Assembly: GCF_025136295.1 (NCBI RefSeq)
Contig: NZ_CP062788.1
Location: 2,621,588-2,685,587 of the forward strand
Direction: 5' to 3'
Length of the DNA stretch: 64,000 bases
Origin: Aestuariispira ectoiniformans
Lineage (GTDB): Bacteria; Pseudomonadota; Alphaproteobacteria; UBA8366; Aestuariispiraceae
Position numbers and translations under genes: made by a program. Below, piece after piece: positions 36,877 through 39,892 of this stretch (positions within the stretch are counted from its first letter, which is position 1; every line of letters begins with the position of its first letter). The notes beneath the pieces were generated by a model. The model was not told where the DNA came from. It made no database searches and saw only the letters and a list, made by a program, of their open reading frames with translations.

Positions 36877-37797
36877 TTATTCCGCGGCCCGCGCCGATGG
36901 AGCGGGGGGCGGACTGCCGAGCAATATCTGGCTATGTAAACTGAATTGCTCAGCCAGAAAGGTCATTGCGTTGCGAATCAGGGGAGATTTACGCAAGTCG
37001 CGATGGACCAGCAGGTGCAGGACGCTACGCGCCTCGTCGATAGGCTCCGAAATGCGGATCAGGCTTGTATCCCTGTCACCCAGATAGCAGGGCAGGAGAC
37101 CCATTCCAATGCCGCTTCGCAGGGACTCTTGTAGCAGATGAAGGTTTGATACCCGTAAAATTGCGTTGCTCTTGAGCGTCCGCGCCAGCCATTTCTCACC
37201 GGGTTCGGTGAGGTGGTCTGCATCGAAATGAACCCATTCCGCCATGCCGTAGCGTTGTTCTGTCAGGCAGGCAGGGTGCGCCTCAACAAACTCTGAATGG
37301 GCGTATATCGCAAATTCCATGACAGCCAGCTTGCGCGCAATCAGATCGCCAAATTCGGGAATGCAAAACCGGATGAGGAGGTCGGCTTCCCGTTGACTGA
37401 GATTAGCGTCGCGCTGTGAGGCGAGGAATTCCAACTCCACATTGGGAAAATTTGAGAAAAAGGCGGGGGCGATCTGGGTGATGAAAGGCGCGCACTGATG
37501 GTTGCTGGAAAGGCGGAGACATCCGTTCAACTCTGCCAGTCCTGCCTGCCGTATGTTGAATTCCGCCGCCGCATCCGACATTTTACGGGCCACGGCAAAA
37601 AGGTCGTTTCCGGCCTCTGTCAGGCGGAAACCGTCATTGAAACGGTCGAAAAGCCGTAACTCCGTGGCGTCTTCCAGGGCATTGATATGCCGACCGACCG
37701 TCGGCTGTGTGCTGCCCAGCTTTCGGGCCGCGCCCGAGAGACTGCCCGTGTCAGCGACGGCGAGGAAGAAACGTATGTTGTCCCAACTGTATTTCAT
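36877..37797 (-). CDS. LysR-family transcriptional regulator
   Basis: A 306-residue regulator with the N-terminal winged helix-turn-helix (DNIRFFLAVADTGSLSGAAR and LGSTQPTVGRHINALED) and a type-2 periplasmic-binding-like effector domain. Such proteins usually control the divergent neighbour, here a DMT exporter gene, and a good inverted repeat sits between them. The effector is unknown. The pair is inserted between ribD and ribE. Confidence 0.9.
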   Translation of the reverse strand: MKYSWDNIRFFLAVADTGSLSGAARKLGSTQPTVGRHINALEDATELRLFDRFNDGFRLTEAGNDLFAVARKMSDAAAEFNIRQAGLAELNGCLRLSSNHQCAPFITQIAPAFFSNFPNVELEFLASQRDANLSQREADLLIRFCIPEFGDLIARKLAVMEFAIYAHSEFVEAHPACLTEQRYGMAEWVHFDADHLTEPGEKWLARTLKSNAILRVSNLHLLQESLRSGIGMGLLPCYLGDRDTSLIRISEPIDEARSVLHLLVHRDLRKSPLIRNAMTFLAEQFSLHSQILLGSPPPAPSARAAE

Positions 37798-37883: not shown

Positions 37884-37928
37884 ATGGGTTGATACTGCAA
37901 GCCAATCATACATCGAGTGAGCTTGGCT

Positions 37929-38834
37929 ATGATGAAAAGCCCGCTATTGATTGCATGGGCCTGTGTGCTTTCCGCATCCTTATGCTTTGCCGTTTTGTTC
38001 GCGATGCCCCGTTTTGCGAATGCGGATTTAAGTTGGGCTCAAATTGCATTTGTTCGCTACCTTGGCGGTTTTGTCTGCGTAACTTTCTATGGGCTGATTT
38101 CCGGCAGGTGGCGGCGACAGGTGACCCGGAATTATTGGCATATCCATGTGCCCAGGGCTTTGTTCGGGATCGGGACGGTTGGTTGCATCGTCTATGCCAC
38201 ACGGTCACTGGCTTATTCCGATGCGATTGCGGTCGGTTTCTCGAAGGGTGGTTTTGTCCTGCTTTTTTCCGCTCTGCTGCTGAGGGAGGCGGTAGGAGCG
38301 GTGAGATGTGTTGGCCTATGCCTCAGTTTTGCGGGGGCGCTCGTAATCTTATCCAACGAGCAGGGCGGTCTTTCAATGGACATTTTTTCCGGAGCTGGTG
38401 GGATCGCGTTGCTTGGCGCCATATTTATGGCGGGTGAAGTCGTATTGTTGAAAATGGCGACATTGAAAGACAATGCGCTTGGTATGCTTGCCTGGGTAAA
38501 CGGCACAGGGATGATCGTTGCGTTGTGCCTGTCGCTGCCGGACGGGATGCCGGATATGAATTGGTCGCTTCTACCGGTGATCCTGATGGGGCCGATTGCC
38601 GTCTTTGGACAGATGTTGAACTACTTCGGGCATCGGCAGGCAGATGCGTCTTTCCTGGCGCCTCTGGGCTATACAACAATTGTCTATTCCATTGTCATTG
38701 GCTGGGTGGCGTTTTCAGAAAGCCTGTCCTTTGTGGGGGCGGTCGGCGCATTTCTTGTCATCGCAGGCGGGGCGATTTCGGCGCGTACCCCGTTAAACAC
38801 TCTGGTATCACCGGTGCGGATCGGACGAGTATGA
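37929..38834 (+). CDS. EamA/DMT-family transporter
   Basis: An inner-membrane protein of 301 residues with ten hydrophobic segments in two EamA repeats (PLLIAWACVLSASLCFAVLF at the start; second repeat from about residue 150). The substrate is unknown; its control by the divergent LysR gene is inferred from arrangement. A GTG at 37917 would add four residues. It resembles the other DMT protein in this window only at the level of family. Confidence 0.88.
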   Translation: MMKSPLLIAWACVLSASLCFAVLFAMPRFANADLSWAQIAFVRYLGGFVCVTFYGLISGRWRRQVTRNYWHIHVPRALFGIGTVGCIVYATRSLAYSDAIAVGFSKGGFVLLFSALLLREAVGAVRCVGLCLSFAGALVILSNEQGGLSMDIFSGAGGIALLGAIFMAGEVVLLKMATLKDNALGMLAWVNGTGMIVALCLSLPDGMPDMNWSLLPVILMGPIAVFGQMLNYFGHRQADASFLAPLGYTTIVYSIVIGWVAFSESLSFVGAVGAFLVIAGGAISARTPLNTLVSPVRIGRV

Positions 38835-38924
38835 GGCTGGTTGAGCGCAGTATCTTAATGGTAGAAATAATGCTAATTATTCAATTAGATTATTTTTCCT
38901 TGCTCCGTTAGTATCCTTCAATCC

Positions 38925-39050
38925 CACATCCACCTACGCGCATTTGGTGGGTGCGGCCGTAACGGGCCGTCTTTGTGGGGGGATTCCCCAAATCTCGGAT
39001 TAATGCCGGGACAGAAGCGCCTCAAGTGTTGAGGCGCTTCTGTTGTGTAT
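38925..39050 (+). ncRNA. Candidate structured noncoding RNA or leader with terminator hairpin
   Basis: Predicted by eye: an outer helix AATCCCACA (from 38930) with TGTGG...GGGATT, enclosing hairpin CATCCACC / GGTGGGTG (38936-38953) and hairpin CGGCC / GGCCG (38954-38969); then TCTCGG / CCGGGA (38993-39011), then a perfect 14-bp hairpin at 39011-39043 with a 5-base loop. Dense nested pairing with no coding signal suggests an independent small RNA or a regulatory leader of ribE. No family was recognised. Confidence 0.5.
39011..39043. terminator. 14-bp hairpin upstream of ribE
   Basis: ACAGAAGCGCCTCA with TGAGGCGCTTCTGT around a 5-base loop; the plus-strand tail GTTGTGTAT is only modestly T-rich, so termination may be partial. 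Confidence 0.7.
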
Positions 39051-39265
39051 GGCAGGATTATTTACTCAGGCCCGTGTCGCCGGGGTATAAGTGTTTCCCT
39101 GGATGGGGCCGATATGTTCAGGGCTGGGCAGGCTTTATCTTCTTGTTCTTCGGTGGAAACCCTATGTTGCCGCAAATCGAAGAAAAATGTCCATTTTTTG
39201 TTAGAATTGTCCGGTCGAAACTCGTAAAAACCGGGCAGGAATGAATGACGATTGGGGCAGGCAAA

Positions 39266-39892
39266 ATGTTTACCGGAATTGTGTCGGACATCGGTCAGAT
39301 CAGCGGTGTCGAAAAACGGGGCGACACACGCTTTGTTATCGAGACTTCGTATGACCCGGATACCATTGATCTTGGGGCGTCCATCGCTTGTTCCGGCGTC
39401 TGTCTGACAGTTGTCGAAAAGGGAACGGACGATGCCGGACAAAACTGGTTTGCGGTTGATGCCTCTGAAGAAACATTAAGCCTGTCTTCTTGCCGCAACT
39501 GGGATATCGGCACCAAGGTCAATCTGGAACGGGCATTGCGGTTGGGCGATGAACTGGGCGGCCACTTTGTTCTGGGCCATGTTGACGGATTGGCCAAAAT
39601 CGCATCGCGTGAAGCAGAAGGCGATAGCCATCGCTTCACCTTTGAGGTGCCCAAAGACCTGATGAAGTTTATTGCGCCCAAGGGATCGGTGGTCCTGAAC
39701 GGTGTGTCGTTGACAATCAACGAAATCTACACCCCTGAAACCGGTCAGAATTTTGTTGGATTTGGGGTTAATATCATCCCTCACACCGCAGAACATACCA
39801 CCTTTGGCGACGCAAAACCGGGTGATCCGGTAAATATCGAAGTCGACTCAATGGCGCGCTATGTTGCGCGTCTCATGGAACATAAGGACTGA
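39266..39892 (+). CDS. ribE: Riboflavin synthase alpha chain
   Basis: Dismutates two 6,7-dimethyl-8-ribityllumazines to riboflavin. The 208-residue protein starts with the MFTGIV motif and contains two lumazine-binding repeats: residues 1-95 with CSGVCLTVV and repeat 2 from [11 protein letters not shown] with [12 protein letters not shown] at 39266 is set by the family N-terminus. It is 5 bases before ribB. Confidence 0.95.

Follow-up and report, generated by a model that had tools for sequence, protein, structure and literature searches.

Lineage-restricted small RNAs are common. For the element described here the closest parallel is GsrN of Caulobacter crescentus, an Hfq-dependent small RNA of roughly 100 nt from an alphaproteobacterium, which has an intrinsic terminator, uses a C-rich 5' loop for pairing and stands under the general stress sigma factor; its BLASTn homologues are confined to one family (PMC5869019). 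Two other known RNAs offer partial parallels, the FMN riboswitch (RF00050), a non-coding RNA near riboflavin genes, and 6S RNA (RF00013), which is short, structured and stand-alone. The riboflavin operon of Caulobacter is described as having no FMN riboswitch and being under IscR and Fur (PMC11475020), which suggests that control of a riboflavin operon by other means is not unusual in the class.

The element lies in Aestuariispira ectoiniformans, between a transporter gene and the riboflavin synthase gene ribE. By description, and not by homology, it is like GsrN in its similar size, predicted build and narrow range, but differs in that the GsrN loop is C-rich while the conserved core of the element is G-rich. 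Judging by GsrN, a lineage-restricted small RNA of this build would be ordinary (PMC5869019). We read the element as a candidate for a stand-alone, lineage-restricted small RNA gene, a reading to which we give a probability of roughly 0.55, and as a candidate it is probably an ordinary one. If transcribed, it would represent a small RNA family absent from Rfam release 15, found in two genera only and placed together with a lysR-eamA pair within a riboflavin gene cluster. This would be a modest addition, with greater weight if the element regulated flavin supply.

The eamA-ribE gap and its counterpart in Aestuariispira insulae

The window, that is, the whole stretch of 64,000 nucleotides analysed (G000:C1:2621588-2685587 of a 4.36-Mb genome, GC 0.543), contains a lysR-family regulator gene on the minus strand (36877-37797; PF00126 and PF03466), followed on the plus strand by an eamA-family transporter gene (37917-38834; PF00892, E 2.1e-21) and ribE (39266-39892; NF006767, 229.7 bits against a cut-off of 155), with ribBA and ribH downstream of the latter. 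The gap measures 431 bases, as given in the initial annotation, with the eamA stop at 38834 and the usual start of ribE (MFTGI) at 39266; a second in-frame ribE ATG is found at 39245. As to a coding signal, an 89-aa GTG frame (38975-39244) matched nothing in Pfam at an E-value of 10 or below, and the corresponding frame of A. insulae hits a TGA at codon 4.

The proposed small RNA occupies about 130 nt of this gap (38917-39046, plus strand), both ends being predicted positions. A copy is present inside the 417-bp eamA-ribE gap of A. insulae CECT 8488 (Aestuariispiraceae, Rhodospirillales, Alphaproteobacteria in the NCBI taxonomy), and both genomes have the gene order nrdR-ribD-lysR(-)-eamA-element-ribE-ribBA-ribH-nusB, with glyA also beside nrdR. 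The local alignment of the element with the A. insulae gap scored 51, against a maximum of 29 over 1000 shuffles. Taken separately, the core part (38916-39010, score 35, shuffle maximum 29) and the hairpin part (39011-39046, score 33, shuffle maximum 24) were each reached by none of 1000 shuffles, and the upstream flank (38835-38915) was not above chance, its score being reached by 39 of 1000. Non-coding conservation is thus higher in the element than in its flanks. When 38840-39060 was run by BLAST against 39 genomes, its own among them, the A. insulae gap came up amid many short chance hits, at 71% identity over query positions 121-205, which are the 3' 85 nt of the element (E 0.011 for the whole genome).

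Good alignment is limited to the 3' two thirds of the element, and the hairpins at its 5' end differ. A conserved core, GGCCGTCTTTGTGGGGGGAT (38965-38984, plus strand), is identical at 18 of 20 positions in A. insulae. Of the 43 genomes of the order, none but these two has the core GGCCGWCTYTGTGGGGGGAT without a mismatch to the two-genome consensus; the same pattern with up to three mismatches appears in 19 of the 43, much like a reversed control. Beyond the hairpin, 39047-39180 gave a marginal score of 28, reached by 1 of 1000 shuffles, with mild conservation at 39081-39128 (also score 28, 1/1000), so that the conserved unit may extend past the hairpin.

Fold and flanking promoter-like signals

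The segment is real and conserved, and its anatomy is unlike the one first described. The fold of 38918-39049 came to -64.9 kcal/mol, where shuffles averaged -45.1 (z -5.5, no shuffle of 200 as good), and the A. insulae copy behaved similarly (z -6.25, again 0/200). The dominant feature is a perfect 15-bp hairpin at 39011-39043, which is the source of most of this excess; the remaining 38916-39010 folds with a z of only -1.8, and the fold of the core by itself is weak (z -1.8 and -2.7). To call the segment densely structured was therefore an overstatement. The minus strand of 38916-39046 folds about equally well (z -5.2), and the fold thus gives no indication of the strand.

The hairpin itself had been reported with 14 bp and is slightly longer, its arms (39011-39025 and 39029-39043) being 15 nt each, 100% complementary and 3 nt apart. 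Together with an imperfect T-rich tail it forms a terminator-like structure (39011-39046, plus strand), although a strict terminator scan of 38700-39300 found none; the T tail is interrupted. Between the two genomes the stem has undergone five substitutions with 15 of 15 pairs kept (two pairs changed on both sides, one on one side), and the loops differ in length. Keeping all the pairs happens in 0.14% of random placements and in 6.9% under a transitions-only null, which is not rejected, so we count the retention as support and not as proof; the covariation rests on few changes because there are just two homologues.

For the hairpin placed at 38936-38953, the likelier pairing is of 38927-38934 with 38946-38953 (5' hairpin, 38927-38953, plus strand). 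Six of its eight pairs have probabilities of 0.59-0.70, the two outermost reach 0.49 and 0.20, and a competing register is at 0.25-0.30; in A. insulae a hairpin of other sequence occupies this position. The next hairpin, CGGCC/GGCCG at 38954-38969 (plus strand), was confirmed in the window, with five pairs at 0.98-1.00, and is not formed in A. insulae, where its 5' arm is absent. Further downstream, the helix drawn at 38993-39011 keeps five pairs (38994-38998 with 39006-39010, at 0.77-0.81) but hardly its outermost one (0.29), and the outer helix, 38923-38928 with 38974-38979, is weak (0.18-0.35) and not common to A. insulae. Both genomes have a G-rich hairpin, GGGG/CCCC, at 38977-38989 (plus strand; 38977-38980 with 38986-38989), at 0.51 in the window, where a rival register has 0.27, and at 0.98-0.99 in A. 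insulae.

Upstream of the element there is an AT-rich trough (38861-38901, plus strand, GC 0.20 versus 0.543 for the window), possibly upstream promoter DNA. The lowest 40-mer of the gap (38855-38894) has a GC of 0.175, equalled or beaten by 0.016% of the 40-mers in the window; the trough is milder in A. insulae (0.34). A -10-like box, TAGTAT, of a putative promoter follows at 38909-38914 (plus strand), with TATCAT at the corresponding position in A. insulae. A strict sigma-70 scan of 38700-39300 returned no promoters. Some 145 nt downstream of the hairpin comes a second conserved stretch (39188-39241, plus strand), with TTTTTTGTTAG at 39194-39204, which scored 39 against the A. insulae gap (maximum of 1000 shuffles 26, none reaching it; 39181-39244 likewise 39 and 0/1000). 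We read this promoter-like block as the putative promoter of ribE. Of the 14 family genomes, own included, three have the exact 11-mer TTTTTTGTTAG ahead of ribE, namely the two with the element and a third (G005) that is without it. An exact match to TTTTTTGTTAGNATT occurs once in the window, in this block.

Distribution and known RNA families

A covariance model built on both copies found clear copies (at least 146 bits) in 2 of the 43 genomes of the order and in the same 2 of 385 genomes sampled from the class. With this full model, E-values of 1 or below turned up in 10 of the 43, and nothing except the two known copies exceeded 29 bits; the next best (G042, 23.5 bits, E 7e-4) reads as a gene end with an unrelated terminator. 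In the class sample four of 385 had matches at E 0.01 or better, among them G302 (23.4 bits) and G105 (19.6 bits), both without the core. A model free of the hairpin again singled out the same two genomes (at least 91 bits, the next at most 20.9). At E 0.05 or better it matched 9 of 385 genomes, seven of them at 18-21 bits and without the GTGGGGGGA core. Within the family, 8 of 14 genomes gave matches with E-values of 1 or below; after the known copies the highest score was 20.9 bits, and the weaker matches that were inspected are without the core as well. Inspection covered 12 and 6 weak loci, the weak L106-L113 of the family search being left out. Because the large searches ran with the stricter filters of Infernal, and the class was represented by a sample, distant copies may have escaped them.

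Comparison of the regions upstream of ribE, proposed in the initial annotation as a check, was positive for A. insulae and negative for the other 12 family genomes, whose 600 bases before ribE (267 in G008) scored 14-21 against the element, versus 51 for A. insulae. Based on these sequence comparisons, the element seems so far restricted to two related genera. It has one full copy per genome. A repeat or mobile element was considered and set aside, the own genome having a single full copy and the second match there being the palindrome on the other strand; a search of viral contigs did not find the exact core.

One part of the element is a trap for conservation searches based on BLAST. In the search of 39 genomes, 24 (own included) had some match at E 1 or better, many of them at query 97-120, and on the minus strand 38936-38959 resembles coding DNA of many relatives at 88-96% across some 24 nt, in a chance-like way. 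Nine of these matches were inspected and seem to encode a Gly-Arg-Thr-His-Gln motif, presumably that of pseudouridine synthases. The minus-strand frame of the window at 38936-38959 had no Pfam match, and we take the apparently wide conservation of this stretch as coincidence and not as a conserved RNA.

That the segment matches no RNA family was borne out, as none of 4227 Rfam families reached its gathering score in the element (two tRNAs were the only hits in the window), and under permissive settings the two gaps shared no family, nor did any family come close to its gathering score. Nor did the covariance models of the FMN riboswitch, whose core had likewise been reported as absent, or of 6S RNA match the element, so riboswitch, 6S and other Rfam identities are ruled out by these scans. 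Both RNAs are encoded elsewhere in both genomes, the FMN riboswitch at 118 and 110 bits and 6S RNA at 59.7 and 62.8 bits; the riboswitch of A. ectoiniformans (1529789-1529941, 118 bits) has a lumazine-synthase-like frame downstream. Both genomes also encode Hfq (PF17209, 113.3 and 112.5 bits). Our literature search found no paper on the element.

A proposed separate gene and its alternatives

The simplest reading is a separate gene between two transcription units. With the AT-rich trough and TAGTAT box just upstream, transcription would begin at about 38917-38926 and end at the 39011-39043 hairpin, ahead of a separate ribE promoter. The product would be an RNA of about 120-130 nt composed of the 5' hairpin, the core GGCCGWCTYTGTGGGGGGAT with its G-rich hairpin and the strong 3' hairpin, and it may act in trans as a base-pairing regulator through the conserved core, probably assisted by Hfq. 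Of the two possibilities first raised, a stand-alone small RNA with its own terminator and a new type of ribE leader, the former is favoured by the synteny in a second genus, the trough with its -10-like box and the kept stem, and because a separate conserved promoter-like block precedes ribE we read the element as a stand-alone gene and not as the leader of ribE. Against the start regions of neighbouring genes, 8 to 10 of them, pairing was in either genome no better than with shuffles (for the best, 19 of 200 shuffles were as good), so that a target is probably to be sought elsewhere.

Chief among the rivals is a conserved 3' UTR of eamA, in which the element would be the end of the eamA transcript with its terminator, perhaps cut out as a small RNA. 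We consider it unlikely, if worth serious attention. In its favour, the element lies 80-90 nt past the eamA stop on the same strand, eamA is orthologous in both genomes, a terminator is expected behind this gene and the strict scan provided no promoter specific to the element. Against it, the 20% GC trough and the -10-like box separate eamA from the element, the 81 nt from the stop to the element stay within the shuffles (39/1000 reach the score), and a simple terminator would not need the conserved 20-nt core. A purely DNA-level role, as a bidirectional terminator or a protein-binding palindrome insulating eamA from ribE with no functional RNA, would explain why the perfect palindrome is the most conserved structure and why the minus strand folds like the plus strand; against it, the conserved 20-nt core is outside the palindrome and the palindrome loops are unequal in length between the genomes, and we regard it as improbable.

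A leader or attenuator of ribE-ribBA-ribH, in which a ligand or protein sets the choice between a stop at 39011-39043 and read-through, would fit the position of the element beside ribE in both known cases, the strong hairpin ahead of a biosynthetic operon and the mild conservation at 39081-39128 after it. This possibility is doubtful, since the core is separated from ribE by the strong hairpin and by the conserved promoter-like block at 39188-39241, whose TTTTTTGTTAG is present also in the element-less G005. There is, moreover, no conserved antiterminator pairing, the outer helix (0.18-0.35) being absent from A. insulae, and in both genomes the FMN riboswitch stands at another locus. It would be quite surprising, too, if the element proved either a new cis-acting leader, regulating an operon without FMN riboswitch by hairpin read-through, or a small RNA linking the lysR-eamA cassette to flavin supply.

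Two further observations concern the neighbourhood of ribE in relatives. One genus (g5; loci L034 and L037) has a different common leader-like stretch directly before ribE, GGGTTTGCCTTATCGGCTGAGAAGCGTAAATAC ... GGATAAGG, which may represent a separate promoter or leader. In G007 (L041) an independent, distant eamA-family gene (26% identity) directly precedes ribE; the gap between them is short and does not contain the element. Members of this transporter family thus adjoin ribE in more than one instance.
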